From positions 1-34,468 of IMG/VR virus record IMGVR_UViG_3300046804_002536: a stretch of 34,468 bases of DNA. One strand, given 5' to 3'. The translations under genes and the position numbers were made by a program. The notes under the pieces are model-generated. The model worked only from the letters and a program-made list of their open reading frames with translations, made no database searches and was not told where the DNA came from. Numbering within the stretch: the first letter of the stretch is position 1; each line of letters begins with the position of its first letter. This document shows positions 2,299-19,310 of the stretch, in pieces. Origin of the DNA: a virus.

Positions 2299-2708
2299 TC
2301 TATACTGCCTATACAATGCTTAACTATTTCAAACCATGTTCTAGCTCCTGGATAGCTTTTATTAGAGGTAACTCCACGAGAAGCATGCTTATACCAGGTA
2401 ATCATCATTCCGTTGGGCTTGTAAAGAAAGTTAGGAGGACATCCTTTAGCGTGTGGATGATTTTCGTCCTCATCCCATCCAGAATCACACCAGCAATATG
2501 AACGCATTTCAAATACATCATTAACATACTCTTCAGCCCCAGAATTTGATGTTAATAAACCATCCCATCCATACCTGCCATAAGACTTTCCACGTAGTTC
2601 CGATATTACCTCTGCAATCAAGGTAAGGCCGTCACTTGACCAGTCAGCTTCATATCTGTGCCAATCATTATTACTTAATAGCATTTGTCCTAGTTCTAAA
2701 TCAGCCAT
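2295..2708 (-). CDS. conserved phage protein, 137 aa
   Basis: The central block CWCDSGWDEDENHPHAKGCP at about residues 72-91, followed by PNF and WYKHASRG, resembles a family of uncharacterised actinophage proteins in which Cys and His probably bind a metal. Function is unknown. It sits between two coupled small genes (TAATG above, ATGA below). Confidence 0.75.
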   Translation of the reverse strand: MADLELGQMLLSNNDWHRYEADWSSDGLTLIAEVISELRGKSYGRYGWDGLLTSNSGAEEYVNDVFEMRSYCWCDSGWDEDENHPHAKGCPPNFLYKPNGMMITWYKHASRGVTSNKSYPGARTWFEIVKHCIGSIE

Positions 2709-2905
2709 TATTTATCCCAGTAGGGAACTCCGTTCTCATCATAATCAGAACCTAGTCTTTCTAGTAATTCCGCATTGTCACTAAGCATTTGATCAATGCT
2801 AAGATTTAATTTTTCCGCTTTGATTTCTTCTTTTGTTCGCTTGCATATCTTGCAAGCATCTTCCATGTATTCATTAACCCACCAAACATGCTTGTGAAGT
2901 GTCAT
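2708..2905 (-). CDS. small CxxC protein, 65 aa
   Basis: H4, H6, and CKICKRT at residues 18-24 suggest a one-site zinc knuckle followed by an acidic helix. It is the first protein gene after the initiator-like tRNA and probably shares its transcript. A weak ribosome site (AAAGGAT) precedes the ATG. Confidence 0.7.
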   Translation of the reverse strand: MTLHKHVWWVNEYMEDACKICKRTKEEIKAEKLNLSIDQMLSDNAELLERLGSDYDENGVPYWDK

Positions 2906-2976
2906 AAAATATCCTTTGAAAAAATATGAGCAGTTTTAAGACTTACTCAGGTCTTTCATCCCCACTACAGGATTAG

Positions 2977-3051
2977 TAGCAGTGACGGGATTCGAACCCG
3001 TGACCTTCTGGTTATGAGCCAGACGAGCTGACCGAGCTGCTCTACACTGCG
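2977..3051 (-). tRNA. tRNA-Met(CAU), initiator-like
   Basis: A 75-base cloverleaf. The anticodon arm is TCTGG-CTCATAA-CCAGA and the T arm is ACGGG-TTCGAAT-CCCGT. Acceptor bases 1 and 72 are C and U, unpaired, while pairs 2-71 to 7-66 are perfect. A C1-N72 mismatch and the D-arm GAGCAGCTCGGTCAGCTC match the initiator tRNA of actinobacteria as I know it; a true initiator would have three G-C pairs next to the loop, and here the outer one is U-A. The 3' CCA is not encoded. Confidence 0.88.
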
Positions 3052-3062
3052 TCGTATACTTA

Positions 3063-3092
3063 AGTATAACATACAACAAAAATCCTTGTCAA
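3063..3092 (-). promoter_or_regulatory. strong sigma70-type promoter for the tRNA and left operon
   Basis: On the minus strand TTGACA (3087-3092), 18 bases, TATACT (3063-3068) with TGT just before the -10 box (extended -10). The tRNA 5' end lies 12 bases after the -10, so transcription would start about 5 bases upstream of it. Confidence 0.8.
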
Positions 3093-3137
3093 CTAGAATC
3101 TTGATATTTAAATCTTACATTTTAAGATAAATAGTTA

Positions 3138-3143
3138 TATAAT
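3138..3143 (+). promoter_or_regulatory. -10 box for a leaderless plus-strand gene
   Basis: TATAAT at 3138-3143 ends eight bases before the ATG at 3152, with no Shine-Dalgarno between. A start at about 3150 would give a leaderless mRNA. The -35 region is weak. Confidence 0.55.
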
Positions 3144-3151
3144 TATGTATT

Positions 3152-3433
3152 ATGTCTACTCTAGAATTTATAGTTTTAGTTGGTGCAGCACTATCTGCAA
3201 TCTTATTCATAGGAAACAAATTTGTTACCCTATTTAAAACATGGTTTAAATTTGTTGATGATTGGAATGGCACCGATGAGAAGCCTGGAGTAGTCGATAG
3301 ACTTGCAGAAGGTAATGCAAGATTTGATAAGATCGAAGAAGAAATAGCATGCATTAAAGCAGAACTATTTAATAACCACGGCACTTCTTTGCGTGATGCA
3401 ATTGATAGAATTGAAAAGCACGTAGCTAAATAG
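3152..3433 (+). CDS. membrane protein with C-terminal coiled coil, 93 aa
   Basis: The only plus-strand gene. Residues 5-30 form a membrane span, followed by an aromatic amphipathic stretch (FKTWFKFVDDWNG) and a helical tail ending in GTSLRDAIDRIEKHV. That tail motif, a short N-terminal anchor and a DW-N-G segment are what I recall from small actinophage membrane proteins of unknown role, sometimes near tail or lysis genes. It overlaps the end of the opposing gene by eight bases, tail to tail. No ribosome site is seen, in line with a leaderless mRNA. Confidence 0.8.
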   Translation: MSTLEFIVLVGAALSAILFIGNKFVTLFKTWFKFVDDWNGTDEKPGVVDRLAEGNARFDKIEEEIACIKAELFNNHGTSLRDAIDRIEKHVAK

Positions 3434-3650
3434 AATTCTTAGCCTTATATTTATTAATATAATTTAAAGCATAGTCGTATGGATATGCAAGATATGAAGT
3501 TGTTTTCATAAATCTGTCTTCTGCTGGTAAAAATACATTTTCCTCATAAATAGAAAATAATTCAAATTGATGATTTGGATCTTTATCTACTTTATCAACA
3601 TAAGCCATTGATGCACGAACTGGATGTGGTCCATAACAGCTATTAGTCAT
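3426..3650 (-). CDS. hypothetical protein, 74 aa
   Basis: Unrecognised, with a motif CYGPHPVRASMAYVDK near the N-terminus and a Tyr-rich C-terminus. The ATG at 3650 overlaps the end of the upstream gene by eight bases (ATGACTAA); a longer frame from 3692 would overlap it by 50 bases and looks less natural. Confidence 0.65.
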   Translation of the reverse strand: MTNSCYGPHPVRASMAYVDKVDKDPNHQFELFSIYEENVFLPAEDRFMKTTSYLAYPYDYALNYINKYKAKNSI

Positions 3651-4368
3651 ATTTCTTTTTCTGCCAGAATGATTTCTTATAGTTATCTTCAATATACTTA
3701 GATGCTTCTAGTATAGCTGAATCAGTTGGTTTAAATGGTAGCTTTTCTGAGCTCCAGTCCGCCCTCTTAAATGGAATAATCTGAACAACTGGAGTACCAA
3801 GATCAATCTTGCCAGTAAATCCTTTCTTCATTAAGAATGGGAAGTGAACAGGAGCTGGATGCTTATCTGTATCAACTACACCCGATAGAGTATAGAATGG
3901 TAAGTCTGTTCTATTAAGTGGATGTGTAAATAGGCATGACCATCCAGGTGGTGTTTTAATTATATTAAAGTTTCTCCATTTATATGCAACAGGAATATAT
4001 TCATCTGTTGCTCCCCAACCTTCAATCTGAGCTGGTTCATGGAACTGTACTAATTCTGTATCTGGAAAATTAACAAACACCCCTGTAGAACCGTCAAACA
4101 TAATTTCCATAGGAGTTGAATATATATATCCTACACCAAATGCGTCAAGAACTGGAATGCATTTCTTTACCGTTCCCTGTGGAAGATATTTAACACGCCA
4201 GTTTCTTTCAATCTCTCTTTGAGACGGATCATAGTTTCTTTTGATATTCTTGTACCATTGCGGTACATGCCCAATACTTGGAGTTGGATGATTATCCGCA
4301 TAGAAATCATTAGACCCTATGGGCATAAACTTAATTACTTCTTTTGGATCTTTATTAAAAAACCTCAA
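3643..4368 (-). CDS. conserved phage protein, DUF6065-like, 241 aa
   Basis: The segments CIPVLDAFGVGYIYSTP, FTHPLNRTDLPFYTLSGVVD and FPFLMKKGFTGKIDLGTP match my memory of a widely spread marine and freshwater phage family (DUF6065-like) with no known function. The protein is soluble. The start is TTG at 4368, overlapping the thioredoxin stop as TTGA, so it is probably translated from the thioredoxin transcript. Confidence 0.75.
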   Translation of the reverse strand: MRFFNKDPKEVIKFMPIGSNDFYADNHPTPSIGHVPQWYKNIKRNYDPSQREIERNWRVKYLPQGTVKKCIPVLDAFGVGYIYSTPMEIMFDGSTGVFVNFPDTELVQFHEPAQIEGWGATDEYIPVAYKWRNFNIIKTPPGWSCLFTHPLNRTDLPFYTLSGVVDTDKHPAPVHFPFLMKKGFTGKIDLGTPVVQIIPFKRADWSSEKLPFKPTDSAILEASKYIEDNYKKSFWQKKKYD

Positions 4369-4709
4369 GGTCTCCCTGCATCTTTCCAGAACATTTCACG
4401 TCCCATAGAGTCTGTTTCTTTAATCATATTGCTTTCAAAATGTGGTTCTGCAGCATGGGCAAAAAGCGCCTCAATTTTAGCCTTTGGCACTGCACCAGTT
4501 ACTTTATTTGAAACCTCATCATTAATCATTCCAATAAATGTAGGAACAGACATTACGTCATATTTCCTAGCAAGATCGAACTCGTTATCTACGTCAATCT
4601 TTTGATACTGAATATCTGGATTTTCTTCTAAAAATAATTTAATAATTGGTTCCATCATTTTACATGGATTACACCAATCTGCGCTAAAATGTAAAAGCTT
4701 TCTGTTCAT
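4365..4709 (-). CDS. thioredoxin
   Basis: A thioredoxin-fold reductant with active site WCNPC at residues 12-16, the expected cis-Pro segment SVPTF downstream and the DVDNEFDLARKYDV region typical of the family. Phage thioredoxins may serve as polymerase processivity factors or as reductants for host ribonucleotide reductase; neither role is proven here. I choose the ATG at 4709, because a TTGACA-17-TATACT promoter ends six bases before it, giving a leaderless mRNA, although an open frame continues to 4763. About 24 residues extend past the normal fold end and are not recognised. Confidence 0.92.
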   Translation of the reverse strand: MNRKLLHFSADWCNPCKMMEPIIKLFLEENPDIQYQKIDVDNEFDLARKYDVMSVPTFIGMINDEVSNKVTGAVPKAKIEALFAHAAEPHFESNMIKETDSMGREMFWKDAGRP

Positions 4710-4715
4710 TCTATA

Positions 4716-4744
4716 AGTATACTCCCATGTATAAATGTTGTCAA
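4716..4744 (-). promoter_or_regulatory. promoter of thioredoxin, leaderless type
   Basis: TTGACA (4739-4744), exactly 17 bases, TATACT (4716-4721). The ATG begins seven bases after the -10 box, where transcription itself should start. Confidence 0.8.
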
Positions 4745-4751
4745 TATGTGC

Positions 4752-4777
4752 CAGGTAGGGCATTTCTGCCCTACCTG
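4752..4777 (-). terminator. terminator hairpin after hsp20
   Basis: CAGGTAGGGCA-TTTC-TGCCCTACCTG is a perfect 11-bp stem. No T-run follows on the minus strand, as is common for actinobacterial terminators. It separates hsp20 from the thioredoxin promoter eight bases further on. Confidence 0.7.
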
Positions 4778-4793
4778 CGCTATTTAGTTGTAT

Positions 4794-4814
4794 ATTCTGA
4801 TATTAGATCAGAAT
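4794..4814 (-). terminator. second hairpin after hsp20
   Basis: ATTCTGAT-ATTAG-ATCAGAAT forms an 8-bp stem, only five bases past the hsp20 stop codon. Together with the next hairpin it gives a tandem stop or a 3' end protection element. Confidence 0.45.
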
Positions 4815-4818
4815 GCTA

Positions 4819-5238
4819 TTATTTGACCTTAATGGTCTTCGGCTTCTTTTCTTCTGGAATCTCAATCTCTACTGTAACGTAAAGAATTCCATCTGTTAAT
4901 TCAGCAGACTTTACATATGCATACTCACCAAGGGCAAATGTTCTCTTAAACTTGCGAGTTCCAATTCCCTTATGTAGGTATTCTGTTGTAATTGCGTTGT
5001 CTTCTTTAGAGCCTTCGATAATTAATGTACCGTCCTGCTCAGTCACTGTTACTTGGTCTTTTGAAAAACCAGCCACAGCCATTTCAACAACCCATGTCTC
5101 ATCATCCTTTTTAACTACATTGTATGGTGGGTAGTTATTAGGATTAGCTGAATGAACATGATTTAGACGTTGTAGGGTATGATTAAACCCAATAAAAAAT
5201 GGATCATTAAAAAGATCCAGCCCAAATGTATGGACCAT
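4819..5238 (-). CDS. Hsp20 small heat-shock protein
   Basis: ATP-independent chaperone of the alpha-crystallin type. An N-terminal arm of about 40 residues (DPFFIGFNHTLQRL) is followed by the beta-sandwich domain: WVVEMAVAGFSKDQV, TLIIEGSKED, KFKRTFALGEY and GILYVTVEIEIPEEKKP at residues about 117-133. Length 139 aa is normal. Such genes occur in cyanophages and other aquatic phages and may guard virion assembly or host proteins. It has the clearest Shine-Dalgarno of the region (AAAGGAGG, seven bases from the ATG) and its own promoter. Confidence 0.95.
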   Translation of the reverse strand: MVHTFGLDLFNDPFFIGFNHTLQRLNHVHSANPNNYPPYNVVKKDDETWVVEMAVAGFSKDQVTVTEQDGTLIIEGSKEDNAITTEYLHKGIGTRKFKRTFALGEYAYVKSAELTDGILYVTVEIEIPEEKKPKTIKVK

Positions 5239-5264
5239 ATTATTCCTCCTTTAAGCGAATAAAT

Positions 5265-5299
5265 TAATATATGGGTCCCCGAAGGCGACCCATATATTA
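5265..5299 (-). promoter_or_regulatory. hairpin: end of lysin transcript and 5' leader of hsp20
   Basis: A 13-bp stem (TAATATATGGGTC paired with GACCCATATATTA) around a 9-base loop containing TTCG on the minus strand. It could terminate lysin transcripts, followed by an AT-rich stretch. Because the hsp20 promoter starts inside it, the hsp20 mRNA would begin with the inner seven pairs at its very 5' end. Confidence 0.65.
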
Positions 5300-5327
5300 T
5301 TATATCAAATAGACTTTAAGTTGTCTA
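5299..5327 (-). promoter_or_regulatory. promoter of hsp20
   Basis: TAGACA (5322-5327), 17 bases, TATAAT (5299-5304) with TGA before the -10 box. The -35 box overlaps the last codon and stop of the endolysin gene. Confidence 0.75.
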
Positions 5328-6110
5328 CTTCATTTTAATTCTGCGGTATGTCTCTTCATCAACAATACCAGTAGGCTTTAGCTTTTCCTTTGTCTGAAAT
5401 GCCTTTACAGCCTTTTCTGTAGCTGGACCAAATGAGCCGTCAGGCTTTAATCCTAGAGCCTCTTGAACAACCTTTACTGAAGAACCCTTAGCGCCAACTT
5501 TGAATGGCTTAAAGAGCTTTACAGGAGGAACTTCAACACCCTGTGCCTTTGCTACTTCAGCAAGAGCGACTTTCTTTTCCTCTAATGTTGCTGGTGCTGC
5601 CGCTGCATCTGCATCAGGATAATCAACTACTCCATATCCTGCAATAAATACTGGAAGCCCCTTCTTATTTGGACCATATGCACGAAGCTTCTTAGCACAT
5701 TCTCCACCATTTGACTGTGAGCCCTTCTTTCCATCTGCAGATGTATTTCCTTCAATACACCAAGCAGTTCCGTCACCATTATCCTTCAATACCCAACCTA
5801 CGTGATCAATATCACGGCCACCTGGGAAATCAAAATAAACAACGTAGCCTGCCTTTGGCTTGTTACCCTTAACAGGAAGCCACTTACCCATCTTCTTAAA
5901 TGCTGCTACACCCGCTGGTGTATAAACTGTATTTGGAACTTTTACTCCAGCTTGGTTTGCTGACCAGTTCACAAATGAGCCACACCATGGCAAGAAATTT
6001 GCCTTTGTGTATGCTCCATATTTTGTTTCATTATCTTTTGGACCTTCTACGGTTCCAACTTCTTTTTGAATTACTTCTAAAAGTAATGCCAATGTACCCT
6101 TGTCTGCCAT
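5325..6110 (-). CDS. endolysin, CHAP plus peptidoglycan-binding domain
   Basis: Lysis enzyme with an N-terminal CHAP cysteine amidase/endopeptidase domain (residues about 8-165). The catalytic Cys is C43 in PWCGSFVNW, His is H103 in DIDHVGWV, and E120/N122 in IEGNTS complete the usual set. A charged Ala-rich linker leads to a C-terminal PG_binding_1 domain (about 203-259, VGAKGSSVKVVQEALGL and FGPATEKAVKAFQ). There is no signal peptide, so a holin is needed for access to the wall. It follows a 43-codon gene by two bases and uses an AGAGG ribosome site. Confidence 0.94.
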   Translation of the reverse strand: MADKGTLALLLEVIQKEVGTVEGPKDNETKYGAYTKANFLPWCGSFVNWSANQAGVKVPNTVYTPAGVAAFKKMGKWLPVKGNKPKAGYVVYFDFPGGRDIDHVGWVLKDNGDGTAWCIEGNTSADGKKGSQSNGGECAKKLRAYGPNKKGLPVFIAGYGVVDYPDADAAAAPATLEEKKVALAEVAKAQGVEVPPVKLFKPFKVGAKGSSVKVVQEALGLKPDGSFGPATEKAVKAFQTKEKLKPTGIVDEETYRRIKMK

Positions 6111-11523: not shown

Positions 11524-11744
11524 TTATTAATCCAATCAACTATTTTTCGAAATTGCTTCTTCAAATTGTTTACTCTTACAAGTATAACAAAAAGAAGTAG
11601 CAGTGTCAAGACTGGAAATGGATCACCCGCATCATTAATTATTCTATTATATAGCTCAAATAATATATAATAAATAAAACCAGCCCATATTCCAAGGCCT
11701 ATTAATAATCCTATTACATACCCTACTTGTTCTGCACGTTTCAT
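11520..11744 (-). CDS. two-span membrane protein, 74 aa
   Basis: Hydrophobic segments at residues about 6-29 (VGYVIGLLIGLGIWAGFIYYI core) and 42-56 (PVLTLLLLFVILVRV) with a basic C-terminus. Unrecognised. The ATG at 11744 makes an ATGA overlap with the gene above. Its 3' half carries the promoter for the Ntn-hydrolase. Confidence 0.7.
   Translation of the reverse strand: MKRAEQVGYVIGLLIGLGIWAGFIYYILFELYNRIINDAGDPFPVLTLLLLFVILVRVNNLKKQFRKIVDWINK
11581..11609 (-). promoter_or_regulatory. internal promoter for the proteasome-like gene
   Basis: TTGACA (11604-11609), 17 bases, TATACT (11581-11586) with TGT before the -10, all inside the membrane-protein gene. The predicted RNA starts about 50 bases before the GTG start codon of the hydrolase. 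Confidence 0.65.
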
Positions 11745-12182: not shown

Positions 12183-12432
12183 TTCCTGGGACCCCTTCGA
12201 ACTCGCATCTTACACCAAATGATTCTATTACTTTTCTAACTAAATTAATATAATCAGTAATTAATACACGCTGATTAATATCAAATGACATGATGTTATC
12301 TTCATACATTCTTATAGTTAAAAACTCTGGATATTTTACAACATCAATAATAATATTAGGAAAAGGCTTTTTTACTTGTCTAACAGCTCCAGCCATTTGT
12401 TTTGTATAAACTACTGGTCTACTTTTGTCCAT
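12157..12432 (-). CDS. hypothetical protein, 91 aa
   Basis: Unrecognised. Basic N-terminus and a beta-rich middle (PNIIIDVVKYPEFLTIRMYE). It starts 14 bases inside whiB and is probably co-translated with it. Confidence 0.7.
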   Translation of the reverse strand: MDKSRPVVYTKQMAGAVRQVKKPFPNIIIDVVKYPEFLTIRMYEDNIMSFDINQRVLITDYINLVRKVIESFGVRCEFEGVPGNGRKTLSR

Positions 12433-12733
12433 GTTTGGACTTCCACTTTTTCCATACTTCTTGTGTCTTATGTGAATTTCTTGTTTTATCTAATGCCCCA
12501 AGACTTAGATATACTCCGCCCCAAACACCGTACTCCGCATTATTAGTACCAGCATCATGACACTGTTTTGCAACAGGACATACAAGGCACATCTGATCTA
12601 TATTTTTTGCTATTGTTTGATCAGCCTCATATGTATCAAAAAAGAAATCTGTTTCAATTCCATTACATGCTGCCAAATCTGTCCAATGAATATCATCTGG
12701 ATCAATGCCTAAATCATCTAATATGTTTGACAT
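12419..12733 (-). CDS. WhiB-family iron-sulfur regulator, 104 aa
   Basis: WhiB-like proteins are Fe-S transcription factors limited to actinobacteria and their phages. The four cluster ligands are C23 (AACNG), C49, C52 and C58 (CLVCPVAKQC), followed by the family turn GVWGG (69-73) and a basic C-terminus (KKWKSKHGQK) for DNA or sigma-factor contact. Phage copies are known to interfere with host WhiB2-type control of division or exclude superinfecting phage. I choose the ATG at 12733, 20 bases inside the previous gene; an in-frame ATG at 12760 is possible. Confidence 0.93.
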   Translation of the reverse strand: MSNILDDLGIDPDDIHWTDLAACNGIETDFFFDTYEADQTIAKNIDQMCLVCPVAKQCHDAGTNNAEYGVWGGVYLSLGALDKTRNSHKTQEVWKKWKSKHGQK

Positions 12734-12935
12734 ATTTGTCGGGAATCCTCCATTTTCCATCTTCAGAAACTACAAATGTTTCTGATATTCCCCAGCTACC
12801 ATTATGTCTTAATCCGTTTGTTTTGTAAATAGCCTCATTATCTTCTTTCCAGAAAATAAGTTTCCATCCATCCCAAAAAAAATTTTTATTGTTTTGTACT
12901 AATACATGAGCTGTATTGTAATCAAAAACGGCCAC
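12714..12935 (-). CDS. hypothetical protein upstream of whiB, 73 aa
   Basis: Unrecognised, Trp-rich (FFWDGWKLIFWKEDNEA). The GTG at 12935 follows GAAAGG on a leader of only about 12 bases from a well-formed promoter, so it opens the whiB transcript. Confidence 0.72.
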   Translation of the reverse strand: MAVFDYNTAHVLVQNNKNFFWDGWKLIFWKEDNEAIYKTNGLRHNGSWGISETFVVSEDGKWRIPDKYVKHIR

Positions 12936-14396: not shown

Positions 14397-14573
14397 TTAG
14401 CCTCCTTTAGAGTACCAACCAGAACCCTTTAAGTCAATTCCAAAAGTTCTATAAACTTTTTTCATTGCACTATCACATTTAGGGCAGTCTGGAATAACCT
14501 CTGGATCAAGAATAGATCTTTGTATTTCTATAATATCTTCAGAGCAATCACATTTATATTCGTATACTGGCAT
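14397..14573 (-). CDS. FmdB-type zinc-ribbon protein, 58 aa
   Basis: The start MPVYEYKCDC, the second pair CPKC and the end GSGWYSKGG are typical of the FmdB / CxxC_CxxC_SSSS family of small zinc-ribbon proteins, thought to be regulatory. The ATG at 14573 forms TAATG with the upstream stop. Confidence 0.88.
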   Translation of the reverse strand: MPVYEYKCDCSEDIIEIQRSILDPEVIPDCPKCDSAMKKVYRTFGIDLKGSGWYSKGG

Positions 14574-15049
14574 TATCTTCCTATGTGTGTTGGCCAAAAA
14601 TAACTACACTCTTCACAGCATGGATCATTCATTGGATCATCATAGGATGACTGGAATAATCCATATTCGTAAGAATCCTTGCGATATAAATTTGCTTGAT
14701 GGGTTGTAATTACACGATGAAGCATTGTCTTATCTTTCATCCAAAATGGTCTGCCGTTGCAAGTAATATTATTAAAATGTACTTCCATAATATCTTCAAT
14801 AGCATTTAAATTATTTTGATACTTAATGCCACGCTCATTACATTCTTTGGCTATCGCAAGAAGATATTTATACAGCATACCCTCTGAGCCAGCCCACATT
14901 TTAGTTGCTGGATGATTTCTCCAACCTTTAGACGTTCCTGCTAGAGCAGCAAGAATCTGCCTTCCCTCTAATAGTTGTTTATTTAATCTTTTTGAATCTA
15001 GCACTGAAGCAACTTCATCAAAGTCGCTGTATGGCATAAATGTTTGCAC
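14573..15049 (-). CDS. Pyr_excise / MSMEG_6728 family protein
   Basis: The N-terminal signature MQTFMPYSDFDEVASVLDSK followed by RLNKQLLEGRQIL, NHPATKMWAG and a His-containing ATTHQANLYRKD-type end fits the MSMEG_6728 family, grouped with pyrimidine-dimer DNA glycosylases (Pyr_excise). A DNA-repair function is suggested by the family name, not shown. Three Cys near the C-terminus (CCEECSYFW) are an unusual addition and may bind metal. Confidence 0.82.
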   Translation of the reverse strand: MQTFMPYSDFDEVASVLDSKRLNKQLLEGRQILAALAGTSKGWRNHPATKMWAGSEGMLYKYLLAIAKECNERGIKYQNNLNAIEDIMEVHFNNITCNGRPFWMKDKTMLHRVITTHQANLYRKDSYEYGLFQSSYDDPMNDPCCEECSYFWPTHIGR

Positions 15050-17208: not shown

Positions 17209-17282
17209 TGTGGCAAGTAGGACTTGAACCTACGATTACCGAATTATGAGTTCGGGGCTTTAACCAACTAAGCTATTGCCAC
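17209..17282 (-). tRNA. tRNA with CAU anticodon (elongator Met or Ile2)
   Basis: Acceptor GTGGCAA/TTGCCAC fully paired, D stem GCTT/AAGC, anticodon arm CCGAA-CTCATAA-TTCGG, T arm GTAGG-TTCAAGT-CCTAC, A73. The paired first base excludes an initiator. If its anticodon C is lysidylated it would read AUA as Ile, useful for an AT-rich genome; sequence alone does not decide. Confidence 0.93.
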
Positions 17283-17295
17283 TTACTCTTTAATT

Positions 17296-17541
17296 CTACA
17301 GTAAAACTTTGGTTCTGTCTAGACTTTCTTTTACAATTTTTTGTACATATTCAGAAAAATGTTTTCTTATATTTCCAGGTGGCTCACACCCAAGAACTTC
17401 CCACATCTTCTTATACTCTAAAACATTATCGTATGTTGTCGCACACAACATTACGCCATTATATTCTTTTAATGTTGTTGGTAGTGGAACATGTTTCCCA
17501 ACACACTTGCATTGAGTTGCTTTCTTCTGATAACTGTTCAT
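17296..17541 (-). CDS. small conserved protein after terminase, 81 aa
   Basis: Unrecognised. CKCVGKHVPLPTTLKEYNGV and a helical C-terminus (KHFSEYVQKIVKESL) suggest a small fold with possible metal ligands (C11, C13). It starts on the terL stop (ATGA). Confidence 0.75.
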   Translation of the reverse strand: MNSYQKKATQCKCVGKHVPLPTTLKEYNGVMLCATTYDNVLEYKKMWEVLGCEPPGNIRKHFSEYVQKIVKESLDRTKVLL

Positions 17542-19310
17542 AGTACCCTCATTCCTGATATAGCTTCATATACGTCTTGAGGAATAGCTTTTGGAACACC
17601 ATCCCTAGTCTCATATACTTTACCTTCATCTTTAGTCTCTGACCACGTATGTATATCTATTTCTCTATCATCTTTTCTAGACTTAGATATAGAGTTATAT
17701 ATAGATCCACAAACTGCGTCCGCCAAGTCTTTTGAACCTTTTCTTGGGTGGTCTACTCTATCACGCATAATTCTTAACTGTAGTAATTCATCAATAAGCA
17801 ACTTAATGTCTGGCCCAATGATTCTTTCTTCATGTATGCCTAAAGCTAAATCTTCATAATGACGCTTAGCAACAGACAAAATTTCTGTATGAATATTATA
17901 ATTCTTAATCTGCTGCATCATATCATGTGAGTTCCATCGGTCAAATGTTACTGATCTTATATTAAATCCTCTTTCACGTAGAGAAATTATATAATCTTTT
18001 ACCTCTGTAAAATCTACTGACTTATCAGATGTTGGAGTCCACCATCTGACTGCATCCACAACAACAATTGGGGCAACCTGCTGATAATCATTAATAGTTC
18101 TAATCTTTACCCACTCTTTTACGTGGCTCAATGCAACTGCACAATGGTCATGCTTTTGAGCAAGGTCTACGTGAATATAGTAATCCTTCTCTGGAATAGG
18201 CTGAAACCATTCTTCAAACCTTCCAGTTTGATTATCTACACCATTTCTACCAACAAAAGCTTTTTCGACTTTTTCACGAGACTTAAAGAATGCATCTACT
18301 GCTTCTGGTGGCATACAAGCAAAACGTGCAAGTGCGTCTGTTGGGTTTGTATAAAATGCTACTTTAAAATCATCAATACTTCTTGTAGGGTTTACTTCCC
18401 AAGTTGGTCTCTTTAGAGCAAATACTTTTGGAATCCTGTAAGAAACAATCTTATCTTCTTCCCAATCAACAGAGAATTCATTTCCATCTGTCCCATCTGC
18501 AAGATCATCTACCATCTTAAAATTATGTGTACGAATAATAGTTTCTTTTTCAGCAATTACCGCATTGTATCTTTGCTGAATATAGTCACCCTTATATCTA
18601 GGGAAAGAAAGCAAAATTACTTTACCAAAGTCTGGGAAACGTGAATCAACTGATGCACGATACATATCGTAAATAGCACCAGCAGTTTTTGCCTGCTCAT
18701 GACCAGTAGTATTGTCAATACTAAATCCAGAAATCTCATCAAGGATTACTACAAGTGCGTTATATCCCTCAAAGGCTTCTCTTTCTGAGTGACCTGAATG
18801 ACAGCTAATGCTTTTATCAAACTCAATTACGTCTGCTTTCTCAACATATTTTCCAGCAAACCATGGCGATTTATTAATTCTATTCTTCAAGCCCTTAAAG
18901 AAAACATTCTTTGCCTGTTGTGCGTTGATAGCAATATTGATAATATCAATAGAATCCCCAGGTGGTTTTCCAAAATACTTAGCTGGATCCTTTAAGCACA
19001 ATAGTAAATAAACTATATATGCAACAGCAATAGTTGAGCAATAATCTTTTCCAGACCCTTTTCCTAGCTGTGCAATAACTTCATTTACAGTTTCGCCCCA
19101 GCGTTTATTCCCAGCGTCTTCTCCATATAACTTCTCTAATGTTGATTTCTTATATATCTGAGAAGATGCACGAATAAGCATATACTGATATTCTGATAAT
19201 GGTGGCAAACCTAAATAATCTTCGCTAGTTACAAAGGTAGCCAAATCTACTGGACGCTCTTCGAACTCCTCGCCATCCAGCATATCGATGATATCATCAA
19301 AATTAAACAT
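17538..19310 (-). CDS. terL: terminase large subunit
   Basis: Genome-packaging motor and nuclease, 590 aa. The ATPase domain has Walker A GKGSGKD (83-89) and Walker B LVVILDE (186-192, D191 and the catalytic E192). The RNase H-like nuclease domain shows D382 (HVDLAQKHD), D457 (VTFDRWN) and D528/D531 (KGSKDLADAV), the expected metal-binding acids. It overlaps terS by eight bases. Portal and capsid genes, normally next to it, are not seen downstream. Confidence 0.96.
   Translation of the reverse strand: MFNFDDIIDMLDGEEFEERPVDLATFVTSEDYLGLPPLSEYQYMLIRASSQIYKKSTLEKLYGEDAGNKRWGETVNEVIAQLGKGSGKDYCSTIAVAYIVYLLLCLKDPAKYFGKPPGDSIDIINIAINAQQAKNVFFKGLKNRINKSPWFAGKYVEKADVIEFDKSISCHSGHSEREAFEGYNALVVILDEISGFSIDNTTGHEQAKTAGAIYDMYRASVDSRFPDFGKVILLSFPRYKGDYIQQRYNAVIAEKETIIRTHNFKMVDDLADGTDGNEFSVDWEEDKIVSYRIPKVFALKRPTWEVNPTRSIDDFKVAFYTNPTDALARFACMPPEAVDAFFKSREKVEKAFVGRNGVDNQTGRFEEWFQPIPEKDYYIHVDLAQKHDHCAVALSHVKEWVKIRTINDYQQVAPIVVVDAVRWWTPTSDKSVDFTEVKDYIISLRERGFNIRSVTFDRWNSHDMMQQIKNYNIHTEILSVAKRHYEDLALGIHEERIIGPDIKLLIDELLQLRIMRDRVDHPRKGSKDLADAVCGSIYNSISKSRKDDREIDIHTWSETKDEGKVYETRDGVPKAIPQDVYEAISGMRVL

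Follow-up and report, generated by a model that had tools for sequence, protein, structure and literature searches.

A stand-alone initiator-type tRNA gene behind a strong promoter-like sequence in the genome of a probable actinobacteriophage

The initiator tRNA starts every bacterial protein, and the usual explanation for phage-encoded tRNAs is codon compensation. Why, then, would a phage carry an initiator tRNA gene of its own? Codon compensation cannot explain such a gene because the initiator is required to the same extent by all genes and reads no codon during elongation. For this reason, an initiator that stands alone behind a strong promoter of its own offers a clear case for the competing ideas on phage initiators, i.e., the replacement of degraded host tRNAs, counter-defence, and the control of initiation. 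Here, a candidate for such a gene was analyzed in a window of 34,468 bases, which is an entire linear virus record of IMG/VR. ARAGORN predicted eight tRNAs in the window, each encoded on the minus strand, and one of them is isolated, with 10.9 kb to the next tRNA and the other seven located between 13.9 and 17.3 kb (Table 1).

The isolated gene (sequence CGCAGUGUAGAGCAGCUCGGUCAGCUCGUCUGGCUCAUAACCAGAAGGUCACGGGUUCGAAUCCCGUCACUGCUA) scored 64.3 bits with Rfam (E=6e-12; gathering score 29), and a cloverleaf fold was obtained for it. C1·U72 is mismatched, and Rfam marks both cells as non-pairing; in bacterial initiators, a 1:72 position without Watson-Crick pairing is a formylation determinant. The D stem (GAGC/GCUC) gives A11:U24, i.e., the purine 11:pyrimidine 24 arrangement, and the gene also has A9 and the discriminator A73, with CCA not encoded. 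The anticodon arm reads UCUGG-CUCAUAA-CCAGA, placing CAU within the loop CUCAUAA, and its stem contains G30:C40 and G31:C39 but U29:A41, i.e., two of the three classical G:C pairs. This departure does not exclude the tRNA from the bacterial initiators because many sampled bacteria lack G29 as well, having A29 instead. Profiles were generated from 185 initiators and from 57 elongator-type CAU tRNAs, all taken from other loci with the window left out. The isolated tRNA scored 65.7 bits against the initiator profile versus 27.1 bits against the elongator profile, and the tRNA-Met used as an internal contrast scored 13.7 versus 68.2 bits. Overall, these features support the tRNA at 3051..2977 being of the initiator type and not an elongator Met or Ile2. 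An earlier note had described it as initiator-like, which agrees with C1·U72, A11:U24, the CUCAUAA loop, and the scores obtained here with our own profiles; a higher elongator score, which the note had named as refuting its claim, did not occur.

Table 1 Features of the initiator tRNA locus and of the surrounding phage genome.
Feature	Coordinates	Strand	Basis or remark
Initiator-type tRNA(CAU)	3051..2977	minus	ARAGORN and Rfam, both calling tRNA-Met(CAU)
-35 hexamer TTGACA	3087..3092	minus	consensus match only
-10 hexamer TATACT, TG before (extended -10), spacer 18	3063..3068	minus	consensus match only
Perfect 14-bp palindrome TATACTTAAGTATA, overlapping the -10	3055..3068		possible operator
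Next ORF downstream, 65 aa, without family match	2708..2905	minus	Shine-Dalgarno AAGGA 6 nt before ATG
WhiB-like regulator	12419..12760	minus	PF02467, 1.4e-11; marker of actinobacterial host
Elongator tRNA-Met(CAU), internal contrast	17282..17209	minus	G1:C72, C11:G24; ARAGORN, Rfam, profiles
Terminase large subunit	17538..19310	minus	61% identity to Streptomyces phages (Phredrick, Gilson)

The promoter-like sequence TTGACA-18-TATACT spans 3092..3063, with its -10 hexamer ending 11 nt upstream of C1, and a leader of about 5 nt is predicted for RNase P processing. It is among the eight best sites (11/12 consensus) in the left half of the window. The earlier claim that the gene stands under the best promoter was correct as to the hexamers and the extended -10 but too strong in its ranking, as at least one other site, at 11609..11581 (TTGACA-17-TATACT with TG, and the ideal 17-base spacer), equals or beats it. 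Across the region, promoter-like sites were not in excess (63 found versus 60.8 expected from shuffles). Strong promoters (at least 10/12 match) before viral initiators were barely above background (3.1% versus 0.9%), and the strong promoter therefore belongs to this locus, not to viral initiators as a class. The palindrome at the -10 was considered as a repeated operator and rejected, as it is found a single time in the window, which is no more than expected by chance. Downstream, the tRNA and ORF 2905..2708 are presumed to be co-transcribed, and small ORFs without assigned function continue from 2905 in the same direction as the tRNA. As proposed previously, the tRNA is the promoter-proximal gene of a leftward unit, upstream of ORF 2905..2708. 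To its right, the start of a divergent ORF lies at 3152, followed by leftward genes encoding a DUF6065-like protein (slightly under the Pfam cut-off), a thioredoxin, Hsp20, and a CHAP-domain lysin.

Phage genes are found on either side of the initiator tRNA, and the larger ORFs of the window include a polymerase, a primase, a helicase, a recombinase, and the terminase. Based on the WhiB gene and the similarity of the terminase to those of Streptomyces phages, an actinobacterial host is very likely, in line with the actinobacterial link drawn in the earlier note. No formyltransferase domain was found in the window, as expected. Beside the tRNA cluster of this actinophage, a pyrimidine dimer DNA glycosylase (PF03013, 3.9e-19) is encoded at 14573-15049 on the minus strand. 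No exact match to the initiator tRNA was present in IMG/VR, and the initiator pattern was absent from 50 whole records out of 80 terminase-relative loci, nearly all of which are fragments so that absence is unproven. Using the neighbouring protein (3643-4368), one contig was found at 98%, which ends about 160 bp short of the tRNA position, and a second relative (39%) contained no tRNAs within the stretch examined.

As tRNA genes can act as integration sites and are often found at the flanks of proviruses, the gene could in principle be left over from an attachment site or from host DNA and not be in use as a phage gene. Several initiator matches in IMG/VR resemble such provirus flanks, being the only tRNA of their locus and located no more than about 200 bp from the end of a contig. 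In contrast, the tRNA studied here is flanked by phage genes, 3 kb into the record and behind its own promoter, and position 9 and the 29:41 pair are among the sites at which it departs from the actinobacterial host type. An integrase is not among the larger ORFs, nor was one found among the ORFs scanned in this record, which is a fragment, making an origin as a remnant exceedingly improbable. Hardly more probable is the suggestion of the earlier note that the tRNA could shift initiation toward phage mRNAs, perhaps leaderless ones. Leaderless initiation is common in actinobacteria, and one convincing case was identified in the window, where TTGACA-17-TATACT-6-ATG (4744..4709, minus strand) precedes the thioredoxin gene. 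However, when the ATG starts of longest ORFs were compared with internal in-frame ATGs, Shine-Dalgarno matches of at least 4 nt were found at 22 of 39 starts versus 9 of 131 internal ATGs, and matches of at least 5 nt at 15 of 39 versus none of 131. Promoter-like sites abutting a start were not enriched either, as they occurred at 10 of 64 genes (183 candidate starts) versus 7 of 184 internal ATGs. Leaderless promoters as invoked earlier are thus no commoner than chance, with a single convincing case at 4709, and the window shows no sign of a leaderless programme for the initiator tRNA to serve.

We consider it probable, with good confidence, that the gene encodes a functional phage initiator tRNA (tRNA-fMet). 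A working initiator is suggested by the intact gene, by the promoter of its own that precedes it, and by the occurrence of its type in many independent phages, including lineages with known hosts (I3, PegLeg, GodonK, GMA2, CcrRogue, RB23, D3, and T5). The distance between the -10 and C1 also suits a short tRNA leader, whereas U29:A41 counts against function as it departs from the 3GC rule, and so does the lack of an initiator pattern in the 50 terminase-relative records, nearly all of them fragments. Most likely, the phage copy would supplement or replace the host initiator during infection. Its own strong sigma-70 type promoter would drive transcription, host RNase P would trim the transcript, and the host nucleotidyltransferase would add CCA before the tRNA is charged by host MetRS. 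Host Fmt would then formylate it, reading the unpaired 1:72 position and the D stem, and IF2 would deliver it to the P site. In this manner, the phage copy could add to or displace the host initiator tRNA during the takeover of translation by the phage, with the greatest benefit expected if infection degrades or cleaves host tRNAs. Expression, processing, formylation, initiation, and benefit are all inferred here from sequence.

The stem pair 29:41 was compared between viral and bacterial initiators. Among the matches listed by a scan that left positions 9 and 29 free, U29:A41 was present in 24 of 100 distinct viral initiators, and it occurred in none of 397 sampled Pseudomonadota genomes (seed genome excluded). 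Position 29 was G or A in all Pseudomonadota and Planctomycetota matches listed, seed genomes excluded. The 24 of 100 viral initiators versus 0 of 112 genomes, the latter counted by hand among the matches listed, gave a Fisher's test value of 3e-9, which overstates certainty as related phages are non-independent, hosts are unmatched, both scans list only part of the matches, some viral contigs may include host flanks, and the genome scan pattern missed about half of genomes. The exact arm UCUGG/CCAGA was found in 10 stretches when 84,980 bacterial and archaeal genomes were searched; in three of these genomes (Aquamicrobium, Robiginitomaculum, and Bradyrhizobium), a UCAGG copy of the host type is present in addition, and a viral contig carries a tRNA identical to one of the ten. 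Five of the ten stretches belong to Patescibacteria (Saccharibacteria, Moraniibacteriota, and Harrisonbacteria), where the UCUGG/CCAGA copy, with an arm seen elsewhere in phages, was the only initiator found. G29:C41 is also absent from T5, PegLeg, RB23, GodonK, and the copy on an Arthrobacter plasmid. The loop, T arm, and G30:C40 are kept in the window copy and in 168 of 174 distinct viral initiators, a set partly selected for these features, and the window copy thus shows no decay. Overall, the sampled genomes suggest that U29:A41 is near absent from bacterial initiators, and the pair looks like a signature of initiators on mobile elements. We take this tendency to be real, and it may reflect either relaxed selection or tuning.

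The three G:C pairs matter for P-site selection in E. coli, where changing all of them abolishes activity in initiation (PMC10486304), and nothing on their natural variation was found in the literature examined. U29:A41 bears on whether phage initiators have undergone tuning or just relaxed selection at a position that is regarded as strictly selected. One view is that phage and plasmid initiators form a recognisable class (A9, with U29:A41 or another departure from G29:C41), of which the window copy would be a member, and that tuning has made this class diverge from the bacterial form, either so that it evades initiator-specific nucleases and checkpoints in the host or so that phage mRNA can compete for the P site; we regard this as doubtful. 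Somewhat better placed, though still unlikely, is a role in counter-defence, where the phage copy would replenish initiator tRNA cut by VapC-type toxins or, owing to its U29:A41 stem, would itself be cut less readily. VapC homologues of several bacteria cut tRNA-fMet site-specifically between the anticodon stem and loop, and growth is partly rescued by extra initiator genes (PMC8522696). Phage tRNAs have also been argued to evade anticodon nucleases (PMC10264068), and U29:A41 is common in viral initiators while nearly absent from bacterial ones. However, the host-type tRNA has the identical loop CUCAUAA and 38/39 cleavage junction and differs only at a pair deeper in the stem. Where VapC is the nuclease, phages tend not to encode tRNA-fMet (PMC10264068), and no nuclease is known for this host. 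A functional initiator that supplements the host pool is compatible with the replacement of lost host tRNA, including loss by VapC cleavage, which represents the most testable reason for carrying the gene.

Initiators of this type were also encountered in many other phages. Pattern scans of IMG/VR returned at least 120 stretches for initiators and at least 120 stretches for A9 forms, and the window initiator was matched by 320 of 50,697 annotated phage records using BLASTN. The matches inspected include genuine initiators in I3, GodonK, GMA2, CcrRogue, RB23, PegLeg, D3, and phiKX1, among them the mycobacteriophages I3 and PegLeg as well as Gordonia and Caulobacter phages. These initiators have A11:U24 and mostly a 1:72 mismatch (the PegLeg 1:72 is paired), and their annotation is usually plain “tRNA-Met”. 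On one viral contig, two initiator-type tRNA genes stand in tandem (positions 130 and 222). Cyanophages encode tRNAfMet as well (reviewed in PMC4810235), and the fMet tRNA of T5, annotated as “initiator tRNA fMet” in record AY543070 (32428-32505), was described in 1975 (Chen et al. 1975, as cited in PMC4810235). A phage-encoded initiator has thus been known since T5 in the 1970s, and the window gene is not a new type. An initiator in a phage had been called unusual in the earlier note, which holds in that such genes are uncommon, but the many phage records that carry one and the early description in T5 indicate that they are nonetheless well represented. The interest of this gene arises chiefly from its stem signature and its stand-alone, promoter-proximal position.

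When compared with known systems, the T5 tRNA-fMet shares with the window gene a phage-encoded initiator with a 1:72 mismatch (U·U in T5), A11:U24, A9, and a 29:41 pair other than G:C, but it is part of a large tRNA cluster, has an encoded CCA, and belongs to a phage of E. coli. In the T5 stem (CUAGU/GCUAG), G30:C40 is the sole survivor of the three G:C pairs; the textbook 3GC rule thus fails in the founding phage example. The CcrRogue tRNA-Met (NC_019408) resembles the window copy in C1·U72, A11:U24, A9, and an identical arm (UCUGG-CUCAUAA-CCAGA), yet differs in its D stem (GAGG) and encoded CCA and belongs to a giant phage of an alphaproteobacterium (Caulobacter). Closer in host are the tRNA-Met genes of I3 (Bixzunavirus, cluster C) and PegLeg (Bongovirus), which are of the initiator type with A9, no encoded CCA, and actinobacterial hosts. 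The I3 gene is 81% identical to the window copy but has A1·C72 and the full 3GC, whereas PegLeg has U29:A41 and, unlike the window copy, a paired U1:A72; both lie within tRNA clusters. The actinobacterial host-type initiator, found identical between a Streptomyces plasmid and a Tsukamurella record with chromosome-like neighbours, shares C1·U72, A11:U24, the loop CUCAUAA, A73, and the lack of an encoded CCA, but it has G9 and the full 3GC (CUGGG/CCCAG) and is about 79% identical. A 375-kb plasmid of Arthrobacter caoxuetaonis (NZ_CP099467) carries an array of 14 tRNA genes at 2657-5937 of the examined stretch, which is absent from the PLSDB table. Its initiator is the nearest sequence found outside viruses, sharing A9, U29:A41, and 87% identity with the window copy, and differs from it in C1·A72 and in its location on a plasmid within a tRNA array.
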